Source of the DNA: an uncultured Butyrivibrio sp.
GTDB taxonomy: Bacteria > Bacillota > Clostridia > Lachnospirales > Lachnospiraceae
Direction: 5' to 3'
DNA length: 35,085 bases
Assembly: GCA_947168335.1 (NCBI GenBank)
Contig: CAMVLM010000026.1
Span: 1-35,085, forward strand
Notes under the pieces: generated by a model
What the model saw: the letters and a program-made list of their open reading frames with translations, nothing else
What the model was told of the DNA's origin: nothing
Database searches by the model: none
In this document: in pieces, positions 3,330 through 9,584 of the stretch
Numbering within the stretch: the first letter of the stretch is position 1
Layout: every line of letters begins with the position of its first letter
Position numbers and translations under genes: made by a program

Positions 3330-4907
3330 TTACTTTCCGTTTTTAAATTCACCACTGTCATAGAACTGTGCTCTTTCTTCAAGGACCTCATCAAGTCCTG
3401 CATCCTGAAGAGCTCTGTATTCCATATCTTTGACAGTATCGAATTTCGTCTTCGGGCAGCATATCAGATTGTAATTGTACTCAACTATCCTCTTATCAAG
3501 ATCCGTTCTGTACTTGGTTTCAGCGCCACCTACCAGACTGTTCACAGGGAAAACAAACTGCCCTGTAGTACAGACATCATAGTATTTCTCAAGCCACTCT
3601 CTGTCAGCGAAGCTCAGCTCCTCAACATTGGCAGATACCCACTGCTCCTTATTATCTACATAATCAAAATGTTCATTGACTATACAATAATCATCGGGTA
3701 TTGTGCTGTATCCCTTCTCCAGAAGTTCATCATCTGAAAGACCAACCGGGGCTCCATCAGCAGTTTCCCTATGATCAGGTGTAAAACATACGTTGATCGC
3801 ATTCTCCTGATCTGCCAGCCAGTTGAGATATTTCATTACAGAATCAACCTTGTTTTTGCTGGTGCTGGGAACCATTATATACAGGCCGTAAACAGGTTCA
3901 CATATATTTCTGTAGCCTCCGTCCGGAAGATCAAAACACATAACCGGATCAATTTCAGCTGCGGGATCACTTTCCTTTATCTTCGCTATTGCACCAAAAA
4001 GTGCAGTATTATCATCGATAAAAAATCCGGCCTTTCCCTCTTCAACATCCTTATAATATTGCTCATTGTCTTTATCCGCCGCAAAATCAAGAGAGATTAT
4101 TCCGTCATTATAAAGAGTATTGAGTACCTTAAGACCATCAGATGCACCATCCGCCAGGGAAACAAATCTTTCTGAATAGATATAGGAATCCCTTTCAGAA
4201 AGTTCGCCAACATAGGACGAAACAAAATTCTGATAGTACTTCTCACTGCTTAAAGTACCTCCCATAGCCCAGGGCACCAGTCCATCTACATTGCCGGGAT
4301 TATTTTTCTTAAGAGCATAGAGATAATCTATCAGTTCAGCCTTGGTTGAAGGAATTTCCATTCCCATGGCTCTGCACCAGTCACTTCTGATAAACGCCAC
4401 ATGCCTCGGCATCTGAAATCCGCGGCGCTTCATTATGGCAACCTGCTGATCCTTATATTGACCCATGTACTGTATATCAGAAATATTCTTTGTGATATTT
4501 TCACCATATTGTTTCAGGGAATCCGTAAGATCAGCAACCTTATCCTGTTCCGTCAGATATCCGAACAAAGAAGGGGAGTAGGTAATGACGATATCAGGAG
4601 CATTTCCATCCTCTACCAACCTTCTTACAACCTCATCCGAATCATTTCTTTTTATGCTGGCAAAATGGACTTCAACCCCACAGTCGTTAAGAACTTCCTG
4701 TCTTATCCATTCAGCAAGCGTATTGTCATCAAATGTCCTGCCTTCAGGCAGATTGTCCCTGTCCCAGACCATGCAGGTGATATAATTCTCATCATCTTCA
4801 TGGGCGTCCCATTCCTGCCTTCTGTGAAAGCCACAGGCAGCACAGGAAACTGTCATGATCACGGATATAAAAACTGCCGTTAGTTTCTTTAATTTCGTAC
4901 CCCTCAT
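3330..4907 (-). CDS. Extracellular sugar-binding lipoprotein of an ABC importer (family 1, LipO/LplA-like), without its permeases
   Basis: 525 residues from the ATG at 4907 (SD GAGGT). The N-terminus MRGTKLKKLTAVFISVIMTV is a signal peptide followed by two candidate lipidation cysteines, SC and AAC, about 4 residues apart; SCAACG replaces the usual LxxC box. The mature part has the fold signature of large carbohydrate-binding proteins (APDIVITY, LVPWAMGG, GKAGFFIDDN, YLNWLADQEN). Its size suits the subgroup that binds oligosaccharides for CUT1 importers. No permease or ATPase gene is nearby, so it must share a transporter encoded elsewhere or act as a sensor. The gene follows the LacI regulator by 26 bases and precedes the DJ-1 gene by 22. 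With malQ in the unit, maltodextrins are the likeliest ligand, by inference. Confidence 0.88.
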   Translation of the reverse strand: MRGTKLKKLTAVFISVIMTVSCAACGFHRRQEWDAHEDDENYITCMVWDRDNLPEGRTFDDNTLAEWIRQEVLNDCGVEVHFASIKRNDSDEVVRRLVEDGNAPDIVITYSPSLFGYLTEQDKVADLTDSLKQYGENITKNISDIQYMGQYKDQQVAIMKRRGFQMPRHVAFIRSDWCRAMGMEIPSTKAELIDYLYALKKNNPGNVDGLVPWAMGGTLSSEKYYQNFVSSYVGELSERDSYIYSERFVSLADGASDGLKVLNTLYNDGIISLDFAADKDNEQYYKDVEEGKAGFFIDDNTALFGAIAKIKESDPAAEIDPVMCFDLPDGGYRNICEPVYGLYIMVPSTSKNKVDSVMKYLNWLADQENAINVCFTPDHRETADGAPVGLSDDELLEKGYSTIPDDYCIVNEHFDYVDNKEQWVSANVEELSFADREWLEKYYDVCTTGQFVFPVNSLVGGAETKYRTDLDKRIVEYNYNLICCPKTKFDTVKDMEYRALQDAGLDEVLEERAQFYDSGEFKNGK

Positions 4908-4933
4908 AAATACCTCATTAAAAAAACGCCGCC

Positions 4934-5974
4934 TCAGGTAAGGCACTTCATGGTGGACTCACCAATTATCAATTCTCCCGGAAAAACAATATGTCTGTGG
5001 CTGCTTCTCGATTCAATAAGATCAAACAAGAGTTTTACCGTCTCTCTGGAAATCTGGTCCAGAGGCTGACTTATGGTGGTTAATCTGGGGTTGGAATACC
5101 TTCCAATCTCCATTCCATCAAAGCCGCAGACACTTATGTCCTCAGGCACTCTGAGCCCTGCATCCGCGATCGCCCTCATTGCGCCTATGGCAAGGAGGTC
5201 AGTTACACAGAATATCGCGGTAATATCCTTACCGGAAGCAAGTATTCTCTGAGTGGTTCTGTAACCATTTTCTATGGAAAAGTGTTCCATATTCTGTTCT
5301 ACATAAAATACCAGTTCATCATTCACCGGTTGTCTTTTTATGGCAAAGGCGTCCTTGTATCCTTCAAGTCTTAAGTGTCCGACAGAACGTCTTCCCATTG
5401 CCTCGGTAATGATAGCAATATTTTTATGTCCAAGATTCATCAGATACTGGGTTATATGACGGGCCTCAAGTCTGTCGTCAACAGAAACCGTGGAATACTC
5501 CGCATTTCCGTCTCTGTCAAGGATCGTAGCTCCAATCGTGGAAAAAACAGCAGGTATCTTCAGATCCCTGAGCTTTTCCTTGGACTGTTCGGAACCGCCT
5601 CCCAGAAAAATAATTCCTCTTAATCTTTTCTCATTTTCAAGCTCAAGTGCGACATCCGCCTCATCCTCTTCAGGACCTGCATGACGAAGCACGAGCGCAT
5701 AATTCTGCCTGTCTATCTCACTTTCTATGATATCAATCATAGGTGAAAAGAAAGGATTTGTTATTCCCTTTATAAGAACGCCGATGCACTTGGCATCGGT
5801 GCGCTTAAGGTTTCTTGCACTGTCATTGGGGACATATCCCGTTTCATTTATGACAGCAAGAACTTTCTCTCTTGTTTTGGCACTTACATCCACGTGCCCA
5901 TTAATAACCCTTGAAACCGTGCTGACGCCGACACCGCTTATGCGGGCGACGTCAACAATAGTAATTTTAGACAT
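4934..5974 (-). CDS. LacI-family transcriptional regulator
   Basis: 346 residues. The ATG at 5974 was chosen because MSKITIVDVARISGVGVSTV begins the standard LacI helix-turn-helix directly; an extended reading would run further into malQ. HTH and hinge (VSRVINGHVDVS, NDSARNLKR) occupy residues 1-60. A periplasmic-binding-protein-like sensor domain follows (VLIKGITNPFFSPM, ICGFDGMEIGRY-type C-terminal half with FCVTDLLAIGAMRA). The start codon overlaps the malQ stop by 8 bases, so translation is probably coupled. Its effector should be a sugar from the MalQ/binding-protein pathway. The best candidate operator in the window is the CG-centred palindrome at 9098-9111 at the head of the same operon, which would make it autoregulatory. 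Confidence 0.95.
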   Translation of the reverse strand: MSKITIVDVARISGVGVSTVSRVINGHVDVSAKTREKVLAVINETGYVPNDSARNLKRTDAKCIGVLIKGITNPFFSPMIDIIESEIDRQNYALVLRHAGPEEDEADVALELENEKRLRGIIFLGGGSEQSKEKLRDLKIPAVFSTIGATILDRDGNAEYSTVSVDDRLEARHITQYLMNLGHKNIAIITEAMGRRSVGHLRLEGYKDAFAIKRQPVNDELVFYVEQNMEHFSIENGYRTTQRILASGKDITAIFCVTDLLAIGAMRAIADAGLRVPEDISVCGFDGMEIGRYSNPRLTTISQPLDQISRETVKLLFDLIESRSSHRHIVFPGELIIGESTMKCLT

Positions 5975-7502
5975 TAGCTTTTCTTCCGTATGTGGCTGCC
6001 ATATCAAGCATCTTCTCAGCAAGCTCCTTGGTGCAGGCATCACTCTTCATACGCCAGGTCCAGTTGCCACCGAGAGTAGAAGGTGTGTTGATTCTTGCTT
6101 CCTTTCCAAGTTCCAGATAATCCTGCATAGGAATGATAGCAGTATCGGAAACACTTGCAAAGCATGCTCTGATGAACTCCCAGACCACATTTTTATTTGA
6201 CTTGATATTTAAATACTTCTTGGCAAAAGCTTTGTCAGCTCTGGGAATTGTATTAAACCAGCCAAGAGTAGTTTCATTATCATGTGTTCCTGTGTAAACT
6301 ATGCTGTTTTTAACATAGTTGTGAGGCAGATAATCGCTCTCTTCTCTTGCATCAAACGCAAACTGGAGAATCTTCATTCCCGGGAAACCTGTCTTTTTAA
6401 CAAGTGCGATAACGGAAGGAGTAAGATATCCAAGATCTTCTGCGATAACCCTGAGGTTTCCGAGTTCCTTCTTCATCACATCAAACAGATCATATCCGGG
6501 TCCCTTCTGCCATGAACCGTTCTCTGCTGTAGGTTCGCCATAGGGAATTGCGTAGTACTCATCAAAACCGCGGAAGTGATCGATACGAACCACATCATAA
6601 AGCTTGTAGCAGCTGCGGATTCTGTTCATCCACCACTTGTAGCCGGTCTTCTTGTGATAATCCCATCTGTAAAGAGGATTACCCCAAAGCTGCCCTGTCT
6701 TACTGAAAGCATCCGGAGGGCATCCTGCAACGGCTGTTGGCATATTCTTTTTATCCAGCTGGAAAAGTTCGGGATTAGCCCATGTGTCAGCCGAATCAAA
6801 GGCAACATAGATCGGAATATCACCGATGATGTCTATACCCTTGCTGTTTGCATAAGCCTTAAGTGCAAACCACTGCTTCATAAACAAAAACTGAATGAAC
6901 TTATAAAGTCCTGCTCTCTCAGCATGCTTTTTCTTTGCTTCCTCAAGATCAGCCTTTTTTCTGAGGCGAATTCCTTCAGGCCACTCTACCCAGCTGAGAC
7001 CGCCATAGCGCTTTTTAAGTGCCATGTAAAGTGCATAATCCTCAAGCCAGTCGGCATTTTCTTTCACAAAAGCATCGAATTCCTTCTTCAGTTCAGGATC
7101 AGGCTTCTTTGTGCTGTTTTCAGATAATCCGCTGTTTACATAAGCCTTGTAGAGAACTTCAAAACGTGATTTGAAAAGCTTGGCATAATCAACCTGCTCC
7201 TCATTCTTGCCAAAGTCTACCTTATCAACATCAGCTTTATCAAGAAGTCCATCCTCTATGAGCTTTTCAAGATCAACAAAGTAGGGGTTGCCTGCATATG
7301 TTGAGAAAGACTGATAAGGAGAGTCTCCGTAGCTTGTGGGGCCAAGGGGCAGAAGCTGCCAGTATGTCTGACCTGCCTCATGGAGAAAATCCACAAATTC
7401 ATATGCTTCTTTTGAAAAAGTTCCGATTCCATACTTTGAAGGAAGACTTGATATGGGCATTAATACGCCGCATTTCCTACGTTTTACTACTTTTTTAGCC
7501 AT
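5967..7502 (-). CDS. malQ: 4-alpha-glucanotransferase (amylomaltase)
   Basis: 511 residues from the ATG at 7502, preceded by AAGGTGA at good spacing. GH77 enzyme that disproportionates maltodextrins in the cytoplasm, transferring glucan segments and releasing glucose. Visible motifs: substrate loop SYGDSPYQSFSTYAGNP (about 57-73), GDIPIYVA (227-234), nucleophile Asp308 in RIDHFRGF, acid/base Glu355 in AEDLG and Asp408 in GTHDNE. Length is normal for the type without extra N-terminal domains. It lies 45 bases after the PfkB-like gene and overlaps the LacI gene by 8 bases, so it is inside the same operon. The lysine-rich start (MAKKVVKRRK) is a little unusual but harmless. Confidence 0.96.
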   Translation of the reverse strand: MAKKVVKRRKCGVLMPISSLPSKYGIGTFSKEAYEFVDFLHEAGQTYWQLLPLGPTSYGDSPYQSFSTYAGNPYFVDLEKLIEDGLLDKADVDKVDFGKNEEQVDYAKLFKSRFEVLYKAYVNSGLSENSTKKPDPELKKEFDAFVKENADWLEDYALYMALKKRYGGLSWVEWPEGIRLRKKADLEEAKKKHAERAGLYKFIQFLFMKQWFALKAYANSKGIDIIGDIPIYVAFDSADTWANPELFQLDKKNMPTAVAGCPPDAFSKTGQLWGNPLYRWDYHKKTGYKWWMNRIRSCYKLYDVVRIDHFRGFDEYYAIPYGEPTAENGSWQKGPGYDLFDVMKKELGNLRVIAEDLGYLTPSVIALVKKTGFPGMKILQFAFDAREESDYLPHNYVKNSIVYTGTHDNETTLGWFNTIPRADKAFAKKYLNIKSNKNVVWEFIRACFASVSDTAIIPMQDYLELGKEARINTPSTLGGNWTWRMKSDACTKELAEKMLDMAATYGRKANV

Positions 7503-7547
7503 TTTATTCACCTTTATAAATTTATTTGAACACATTAAAAATTGTGT

Positions 7548-8474
7548 TTACAGCCCGTCAGGACGTATTCCCCAGATCAGATTACGCCACTGCTCCATCT
7601 GCTGGGTGGTCATGAAGCCCTTGGATGTTCCCATATATCCGATCTTGTAGGATGAGAAGAGAAGGGCATTCTTAATTGAGTTAACTGAATCTCCGGTTTC
7701 CTGATAGTAATGCAGGAAGCATGAGAAAAGTGCATTACCGGCACCTACCGTGTTGACGATCTCATTTGTCTTAACCGTCTTGTAATCAGCAAGGAATCCG
7801 CCTGCTTTATCAAACAGGATAACGCCCTTGGCACCAAGACCCATGATGATGATCTCTGTTCCGTAGGTCTTACTGATTCCCCTAATGAAATCATAGGGAT
7901 CCTCTTCCAGCTGATCATCTGAGAAATACAGGATTGATGCAGCATCAAGGAAATCTCTGTTATACTTTTCTTTCTCTCTGGAGAAGTTACGGATGTTTAC
8001 CGCAACCTTCTTGCCATGCTCCGCAGCTGCTATCGCAAAAGGTCTGCAGAAATTCGCATTGGCAAGGACAACCATGTCTGCCCAGCCTGCAAGAGGCGCG
8101 AACATGGACATATCATAAACCTTGTCACGAAGATCCTTGATATCCTCAAAGATCTGCTTTTTGCGTTCCTTGTCATAAAGGATAACGCAGTTAGGAGTTT
8201 CTTCCATCATCTGTACAACATACTGTGTGGAAAGGTGAATATCATTTCCGGGAGGATTAAGTTCATCAACGGATCTGTCACGACCGATAATGGACATAAA
8301 CTCAACTTCATTCCCAAGCCAGCGCAGAGCCAGTGCTTCATTGTACGCATCTCCGCCAAGACCCGTATAAATAGAGTTGATCTCAGTTGTAAGAGGTGTG
8401 TAAGTGATCGGCACTTTATCCACTCTGACAATAGTCTCAAGCTGTGTAATACCTGCAACCACAAATTTTCCCAT
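7548..8474 (-). CDS. PfkB/ribokinase-fold protein with altered catalytic motif
   Basis: 308 residues with a strong SD (AAGGAGG). The PfkB sugar-kinase fold is clear: GLGGDAYNEALALRWLG (38-54) matches the family's N-terminal GG...N.A signature, with GRD near 64-66 and the ATP-side MGLGAKGVIL at 211-220. The C-terminal signature, normally DTxGAGD, reads NTVGAGN (241-247). Asn replaces both aspartates, including the catalytic base at 247; the codons at 7752-7754 and 7734-7736 read AAC and AAT. The GAG anion hole is kept. In known PfkB kinases loss of this Asp abolishes or greatly reduces phosphoryl transfer, so this may be a sugar- or nucleotide-binding sensor or an impaired kinase. It lies between a TetR gene (20 bases upstream) and malQ (45 bases downstream). 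Confidence 0.9.
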   Translation of the reverse strand: MGKFVVAGITQLETIVRVDKVPITYTPLTTEINSIYTGLGGDAYNEALALRWLGNEVEFMSIIGRDRSVDELNPPGNDIHLSTQYVVQMMEETPNCVILYDKERKKQIFEDIKDLRDKVYDMSMFAPLAGWADMVVLANANFCRPFAIAAAEHGKKVAVNIRNFSREKEKYNRDFLDAASILYFSDDQLEEDPYDFIRGISKTYGTEIIIMGLGAKGVILFDKAGGFLADYKTVKTNEIVNTVGAGNALFSCFLHYYQETGDSVNSIKNALLFSSYKIGYMGTSKGFMTTQQMEQWRNLIWGIRPDGL

Positions 8475-8494: not shown

Positions 8495-9097
8495 CTAGTT
8501 GTATGTAAGTTCTCGAAGCATCTCCAAATACTTCAAGACTTCATCATAATAATCATCCGCCAGGATATTCCCTTCCTTGAATTTTTTCTCCAGGATTCCT
8601 GTACAGGTCATTTTTACTATATTCCCGATAAGCTCATAATTTGCGCCCGACTTAAACCTTGTGATATCTCCTCTTGCAAGTAAATCATTTATTGTCTGTT
8701 CATATTTCTCTCTGGATGAAAGGATAGCCGTTGCAGCCTCCGGAGTGTCCTCATTTGCAGCCCTCTCCAGAAAAAGCTCAATATATGGGTACTGCTTCAT
8801 ACAGGTTGACAGTACCTTTTCCATTTCTTCTCTTATTGTGAAAAAATCGGTGACATCCCTTGATATTCCTGTTGCCAGCTCAATATTTATAACTCGGGTG
8901 CTGTAATTATATACAAACTGATACAGCCCCAGTTTTGTCTCAAAATAATGAAAAATAAGTCCCTTACTGATACCGGCCATACGAACAATATCATCCGTGC
9001 TGGCATGCATATAACCGCTGGTAGCAAAGGCTTTCAGCGCTGCATTGATGATACGGTCCTGCTTTTCTTTCTTGAGATCAAAAAACTTTTCATTCAT
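8495..9097 (-). CDS. TetR-family transcriptional regulator
   Basis: 200 residues. The N-terminal helix-turn-helix is typical: KEKQDRIINAALKAFATSGY, then STDDIVRMAGISKGLIFHYFETKLGLYQ (residues about 10-60). The remaining helices are a variable ligand domain that gives no ligand. The start follows AAAGGAG, but the spacing of about 12 bases is long because a 14-base palindromic element (9098-9111) sits between SD and ATG. It is the first gene of the malQ unit and 20 bases upstream of the PfkB-like gene, so the operon carries two regulators of different families, one at its head and one in its middle. Confidence 0.93.
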   Translation of the reverse strand: MNEKFFDLKKEKQDRIINAALKAFATSGYMHASTDDIVRMAGISKGLIFHYFETKLGLYQFVYNYSTRVINIELATGISRDVTDFFTIREEMEKVLSTCMKQYPYIELFLERAANEDTPEAATAILSSREKYEQTINDLLARGDITRFKSGANYELIGNIVKMTCTGILEKKFKEGNILADDYYDEVLKYLEMLRELTYN

Positions 9098-9111: not shown

Positions 9112-9139
9112 CCTTTGATTGACCGGATTAGTCCATTTA

Positions 9140-9168: not shown

Positions 9169-9257
9169 CGACTTAACTCCAAATGCTTCCCTTATCTGAC
9201 AATTTGTACTAAAATATATTTTGCAACATGAAATTCTCTTTCGAGGAGGGCTTTTTA

Positions 9258-9584
9258 ATGGCTAAGCACTTAGGAAAAATAGTACTTTTTGCAGCCGCTG
9301 CAGGCGCTGCCGCAGCAGGTGTTTATTATTACCTGGCTCAGAAGGATTCTGAATTTGATGATGAATTCGATGAGTTTGAGGATTTTGATGATTTTGAGGA
9401 CAGCGATGACGAGCCTCATACATCAAAGGGTCGTCACTATGTAAACCTTGATAATTCATCTGATGATCTGGATGATGATTCTGCATCCGAGGATGAGACT
9501 CCTGTTCCCGATAAGACAGAAGAGTTTTTTGATGACGAGGATGATGACATAAACGACCTCAAGAAGATGGACGGCGCACTTTAA
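9258..9584 (+). CDS. Small acidic single-pass membrane protein, unknown function
   Basis: 108 residues. The ATG at 9258 was chosen because it follows GAGGAGGG at normal spacing; an in-frame ATG 30 bases upstream has no SD. Residues 7-25 (IVLFAAAAGAAAAGVYYYL) form one Ala/Gly-rich membrane segment. The rest is dominated by Asp and Glu in runs such as DDEFDEFEDFDDFEDSDDE, with almost no hydrophobic core, so it is probably disordered and may bind cations or basic partners. A short basic patch, SKGRHYVNL, interrupts the acid region near residues 57-66. I know of similar unnamed proteins in Lachnospiraceae, but no characterised family. It is monocistronic, divergent from the malQ unit, and ends at a bidirectional terminator. 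Confidence 0.85.
   Translation: MAKHLGKIVLFAAAAGAAAAGVYYYLAQKDSEFDDEFDEFEDFDDFEDSDDEPHTSKGRHYVNLDNSSDDLDDDSASEDETPVPDKTEEFFDDEDDDINDLKKMDGAL

Follow-up and report, generated by a model that had tools for sequence, protein, structure and literature searches.

In Lactococcus, DhaQ is an inactive kinase paralogue whose gene adjoins that of the TetR-type regulator DhaS; in its ligand-bound form it is a co-activator of DhaS, and the interaction of the two proteins has been demonstrated. Sugar-sensing kinase look-alikes are known in few cases, and the passages cited here describe yeast Gal3p, a non-catalytic protein which has ATP and galactose as ligands and targets the transcription inhibitor Gal80p, and the FLN proteins, non-catalytic relatives of PfkB kinases (PMC3409070). 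FLN1 and FLN2 are presented in those passages as PfkB-type proteins with no detected kinase activity, belonging to the plastid transcription machinery (PMC5405513, PMC3409070). Within the PfkB family, Mak1 phosphorylates acarbose (PMC9053282). The subject of this report is a PfkB-like gene of an uncultured Butyrivibrio sp. (Lachnospiraceae; assembly GCA_947168335.1, contig CAMVLM010000026.1), located in a stretch of 35,085 nucleotides which was analyzed as a whole (the window). Its product appears to belong to a clade in which the catalytic-base Asp was lost once (to Asn, and in one case to Glu), while the fold and most pocket residues were retained.

The gene and its two signatures are located as follows.

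7548..8474, minus strand: candidate PfkB-fold pseudokinase, open reading frame (ORF) of 308 amino acids, supported by a profile match, a fold model and fold matches.
7734..7754, minus strand: NTVGAGN motif, residues 241-247, with Asn247 at the catalytic-base position, from codons and homologue conservation.
8343..8357, minus strand: N-terminal glycine signature GGDAY at residues 40-44, its coordinates calculated from the residue numbers.

The gene begins with ATG, with AAGGAGG immediately 5' of the start. The original prediction, made from the letters alone, had described an NTVGAGN motif with AAC and AAT codons beside an intact GG signature and GAG loop, and this was confirmed: Asn241 is encoded by AAC (window 7752-7754), Asn247 by AAT (window 7734-7736), and G40-G41 and G244-A245-G246 are intact. 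The sole Pfam match at E 0.001 was to PfkB (PF00294; 61.2 bits versus a cut-off of 25.8). None of the NCBIfam kinase equivalogs was reached, the closest being ribokinase with 51.6 bits versus a cut-off of 299.65. By profile, fold and glycine signature the protein is a member of the PfkB/ribokinase fold. The catalytic-base Asp of GxGD, a mark of competent PfkB kinases, is absent, its place being taken by Asn247. That the protein has lost the usual catalytic base is well supported. Six further PfkB matches were found in the same genome, of which five carry GxGD (L227, L230, L234, L237, L240) and one (L246) was unread.

Conservation of Asn247 was investigated with three protein searches, seeded with the window protein (which is counted in its own set), a 35% relative, and L168, which branches deep in the clade; one alignment combined the best 120 of 721, best 120 of 4673 and best 120 of 354 matches, respectively. 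At position 247, 120/120 of the first set and 120/120 of the third carry Asn (240/240 listed homologues), and all 120 listed members of the second, which represents the sister group, carry Asp. The first motif position in the sister group is Asn in 116 of the 120 listed proteins and Ser in the remaining 4. Genome loci gave the same picture, with GAGN in 80/80 of those fetched (80 kept from 182 confirmed relatives). Close relatives keeping GAGD in the same context, which had been proposed as the sign of a sequencing error or recent loss, were not found among these loci; none of the GAGD relatives in the same listing has the TetR-MalQ context.

Wider sampling was carried out at two levels. At family level 34 of 397 genomes matched (five match rows without a locus were left out, and L222 and L174 are one locus). 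Of the 22 loci obtained (L203-L224), 12 were placed in the Asn clade and the other 10 read GAGD; Asn247 was found in 11 of the 12, once within a broken GSDN loop, and Glu in one. The rare variants of the active loop are NTVGAGE (L208) and NMAGSDN (L209), the latter read by alignment after the motif pattern search had missed it. At class level, which tests only coarsely whether the Asn form extends outside Lachnospiraceae, nine of 391 genomes matched, and the two outside this family (L249, L250) read GAGD.

A tree of 61 proteins (144 thinned at 82% identity) needed a single Asp/Asn change (Shimodaira-Hasegawa-like approximate likelihood ratio test, SH-aLRT, 99), and a second tree, built without the seven motif columns from 77 rows (87 proteins, with 10 sister-group proteins omitted), joined every one of its 40 Asn rows, together with the Glu row, in a single clade (SH-aLRT 100), although both were quick searches with long outgroup branches. 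None of the rows placed in the clade of the 77-row tree has Asp247; a single change accounts for this clade, and its nearest sister is a GAGD protein (L218). The original prediction had further proposed that both Asp residues of the motif were changed to Asn under selection. Asn is indeed present at 241 and 247, but the two do not form a joint event. Since Asn241 is common to both groups and normal in the GAGD sisters, there is one clade-defining change and not two in one motif: by these alignments Asp247Asn is the only such change, made on an older Asn241 background, and paired selection on the two residues was rejected.

The ratio of nonsynonymous to synonymous substitution (dN/dS, Nei-Gojobori) has a median of 0.039 (range 0.016-0.076) over 25 close pairs of the PfkB-like gene and 0.053 over 15 pairs of malQ, the pairs retained having 80-98.5% DNA identity and dS of 0.1-1.0. 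Median tree distances, based on the 37 loci with all five genes out of 51 records, were 0.24 for the PfkB-like protein, 0.19 for GlnS, 0.50 for DUF2225, 0.66 for MalQ and 0.70 for TetR. By these measures the protein is evolving slowly and is not decaying, so that the earlier suggestion of selection and not decay is well supported by the conservation of Asn247 in the listed homologues, the low dN/dS and a median distance near that of GlnS. The gene is present in 34 of 37 genomes of the same genus. Two of those lacking it (G009, G017) are incomplete assemblies (84% and 66%); the third (G008) is a clean absence, in which DUF2225, TetR, MalQ and LacI are collinear (L248 6326-8520), MalQ follows TetR directly and the PfkB-like gene is gone. 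G008 is a natural gene loss. Taken together, the comparisons point to a clade-wide PfkB pseudokinase candidate, for which loss of the usual catalytic base and maintenance by selection are strongly supported.

The clade keeps most residues of the sugar pocket and of the nucleotide loop, and both signature glycines (G40, G41) were found in 95/95 clade rows and in 41/41 of a wider set. A C-terminal helix (W296, W301) is conserved as well and is a possible contact for TetR. The structure model of the window protein (predicted local distance difference test, pLDDT, 89.7) had as its best fold match the acarbose kinases Mak1 and AcbK (PDB 6wb5, 6wb7; 17-18% identity), which also ranked first when a mixed profile was matched along its full length. 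Acarbose is a mimic of maltooligosaccharides. In E. coli Pfk-2, the change of the same residue from Asp to Asn is described in the cited part of the source as significantly abrogating activity and only mildly affecting substrate binding (PMC5405513). Because that change affects binding only mildly, the Asn at 247 suggests a binder, and binding of a sugar and a nucleotide by the PfkB-like protein can reasonably be inferred.

The surrounding operon lies on the minus strand in the order TetR, 20 bp, PfkB-like gene, 12 bp, MalQ, LacI and solute-binding protein.

9118..9136, minus strand: imperfect palindrome ATGGACTAATCCGGTCAAT, candidate operator just upstream of tetR, from conserved upstream regions.
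8495..9097, minus strand: TetR-family regulator, 200 amino acids, 20 bp upstream of the PfkB-like gene (Pfam TetR_N, 43.9 bits).
5967..7535, minus strand: MalQ, 4-alpha-glucanotransferase, 12 bp downstream of the PfkB-like gene (TIGR00217, 387.5 bits, cut-off 205.65).
4934..6043, minus strand: LacI-family regulator, from the Pfam scan.
3330..4946, minus strand: extracellular solute-binding protein, sugar ATP-binding cassette (ABC) type, at the end of the operon (Pfam SBP_bac_1).

The true start of LacI is probably a later Met, because with the listed GTG the gene shares 77 bp with malQ. No permease gene was found among the ten window ORFs scanned together with the solute-binding protein. A gene for a small protein of 118 amino acids (window 9228-9584, plus strand), with a hydrophobic stretch near its N-terminus, a very acidic C-terminal part and no Pfam match, is kept in a mostly divergent position to tetR (cluster of 44 neighbours). 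In the clustering of neighbours, in which 10 of 100 loci were lost at the gene-picking step, an opposite-strand ORF of 634 amino acids at L144 fell into the LacI linkage cluster.

Among 104 clade loci, a count which includes repeated genomes and near copies (the proteins of L102/L103 and of L134/L160 are identical for most of their length), a split copy with the motif unread (L175), and some loci with only 1.5 kb of flank, 68 have a homologous tetR on the same strand no more than 2.5 kb upstream, and in 63 of these the distance is at most 192 bp. MalQ is encoded downstream in 59/104, and in three loci tetR and the PfkB-like gene stand together with malQ pointing the opposite way. TetR adjoins the PfkB-like gene directly in L168 and in Butyrivibrio, which are separate branches of the clade, and in Kineothrix (L155) one reversed DUF6062 gene sits between them. 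LacI, the other partner that had been proposed, is the least supported: it is present in 13/20 loci but was the best match in 0/29 loci titled other than Butyrivibrio.

GAGD relatives were found to adjoin a different regulator. A TrmB-type sugar regulator was identified beside them in 5/19 loci (L047 6846-8567, L169 5225-7037, L219, L223, L224), two called by Pfam and three by similarity to those two, with L223 and L224 near copies; flanks are limited to some 1.5 kb in 11 of the 19, and further TrmB neighbours could therefore have escaped notice. The wider subfamily repeatedly sits beside regulators, which differ between the two groups. At another locus (L171 7254-9170, plus strand) an iron-only hydrogenase large-subunit domain is joined to a chemotaxis-receptor signalling domain.

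The palindromic candidate operator 5' of tetR is kept in 9/10 aligned upstream regions, window included. Allowing two mismatches or fewer, it was found at the tetR promoter in 7/7 close genomes and twice elsewhere, and the backward control pattern was found twice, the pattern being derived from the same sequences as tested. It was not found in L089 nor seen by eye across the wider genus; only close relatives of the window have it. As a predicted site it suggests local autoregulation of the operon.

Our preferred reading, to which we assign a probability of roughly 0.45, is that this is a Lachnospiraceae PfkB pseudokinase which binds a sugar and a nucleotide and serves as a regulatory subunit, with the TetR encoded next to it as a possible partner. 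The protein would still bind a sugar plus ATP or ADP; phosphate transfer would be at best very slow, and the signal would be the ligand-bound closed state. The best guess for the sugar is one of the alpha-glucan or maltodextrin type, which draws on the neighbouring malQ and on the match to acarbose kinases. Where encoded with TetR, the protein may be its sugar-reading co-effector, a weaker step, and TetR would control the operon through the candidate site 9118-9136, by analogy with DhaQ-DhaS. This co-effector role is only plausible.

A number of observations weigh against that reading. Across the wider set, 41 clade rows in all, the pocket varies more (N141 in 37/41, R144 in 37/41), one clade member has Glu247 (L208) and another the broken loop GSDN (L209), and the copy of G358 (L175) is split in two frames of 175 and 113 amino acids, which may be real decay or an assembly error. 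The guess at the ligand is weak because a search with the single sequence of the window protein puts MJ0406 (28.9 bits) level with Mak1 (28.6), and because the acarbose kinases lead YihV (33.6) and ribokinase (32.3) by small Z margins. The Asn247 protein may also have residual or altered catalysis. As for TetR, 31/104 loci are without it within 2.5 kb upstream or downstream, some having short flanks and one (L156) being so scored with TetR 3.7 kb upstream. A whole-genome check of 11 chosen genomes gave no full-length TetR match in five (G420, G236, G409, G261, G392), and the loci of four of these five were read with more than 5.9 kb upstream. TetR can also exist alone, since the G008 operon keeps it without the PfkB-like gene. 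The distances of TetR and the PfkB-like protein correlate after removing GlnS and DUF2225 (0.545, either with MalQ giving 0.14), but this rests on non-independent pairs of neighbouring genes. The idea of a sensor partnered with TetR fits the adjacency of TetR in the clade and of TrmB in the sister group, but cannot be the whole function, and an obligatory partnership with TetR was rejected as the sole role.

The strongest alternative, which we hold tentatively, is a pseudokinase whose regulatory or scaffolding function does not involve TetR, a frequent neighbour and no more; it might, for example, bind a sugar or nucleotide and modulate MalQ or another enzyme. It is favoured by the copies in varied contexts without TetR, by G008, and by a rate far slower than that of TetR or MalQ, which fits a role beyond the local regulator; against it stand the occurrence of TetR next to or near the protein on separate branches and the sugar regulator TrmB beside the sister group. 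That the protein is still an enzyme, its base having moved to Asp186-Asp187 or to Asp42/Glu46 of the glycine signature, or its acidic-hydroxyl substrate needing no Asp, is considered improbable. Bases other than Asp are known in the PfkB/ribokinase fold, e.g. Cys in some hydroxymethylpyrimidine (HMP) kinases, one member has Glu at 247, and D186-D187 is present in 240/240 listed clade proteins and is not typical of the sister group. In the 41-row set, however, D187 is found in only 35 and D186 in 40, the loop itself is broken in L209, and the Asp to Asn change in Pfk-2 is described in the cited part as losing activity (PMC5405513). Relocation to D42 or E46 in particular was judged unlikely, D42 being replaced by Ala or Thr in 120/120 listed of the L168 set and GGDALNE occurring also in L230, the DSTGAGD paralogue of the same genome. 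Recent loss, a pseudogene or a sequencing error, which the split G358 copy and the absence from G008 might suggest, is highly improbable and was rejected on the 80/80 GAGN loci, the 240/240 listed Asn247, the dN/dS of 0.039 and the distance near GlnS.

In its widest form, the proposal would be that a PfkB pseudokinase family arose once in Lachnospiraceae by base loss, from apparently active kinases encoded beside TrmB, and became a sugar- and nucleotide-reading co-effector of TetR. We regard this full sequence as less likely than not; if true, a metabolic kinase would have turned into a transcriptional sensor subunit. Butyrivibrio and related gut and rumen bacteria carry a slowly evolving sugar-kinase look-alike with its catalytic acid replaced, often encoded next to a regulator, which probably senses a sugar rather than phosphorylates it. 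With the Asn/Glu clade, the Asp-keeping sister group and a strain that lost the gene naturally, the proposed transition from enzyme to sensor can be put to the test in rumen bacteria that grow in culture. Lachnospiraceae proteins annotated as 'ribokinase' or 'carbohydrate kinase family protein' should be checked at the position of residue 247 before being counted as kinases.

Literature searches on PfkB pseudokinases of bacteria, whether or not paired with TetR, returned nothing relevant by title and start of abstract, most subscription journals being outside their scope; related searches returned as relevant only plant FLN and fructokinase papers. Mak1 and AcbK resemble the window protein in family and as best fold and mixed-profile match; the substrate of Mak1 is acarbose, and malQ is the neighbour here. 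Mak1 differs in keeping GAGD where the window protein has Asn, and identity is 17-18%. FLN1 and FLN2, as described in the cited passages, share the PfkB type, the lack of detected kinase activity and the link to transcription, but belong to the plastid-encoded RNA polymerase complex of plants, involve no TetR, and are likened by description only, not by sequence. Gal3p, on the cited account, follows the logic proposed here, a ligand-binding kinase look-alike acting on transcription, although it is of the galactokinase family, unrelated to PfkB (PMC3409070). The gene pair, found in 68/104 loci, with five genomes lacking a TetR match and TetR alone in G008, is what can be set beside DhaQ-DhaS. 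There the fold is that of dihydroxyacetone kinase and the interaction is demonstrated, whereas for the PfkB-like protein and TetR it is inferred only; in both, the gene for an inactive or putatively inactive kinase look-alike adjoins that for a TetR-family regulator.
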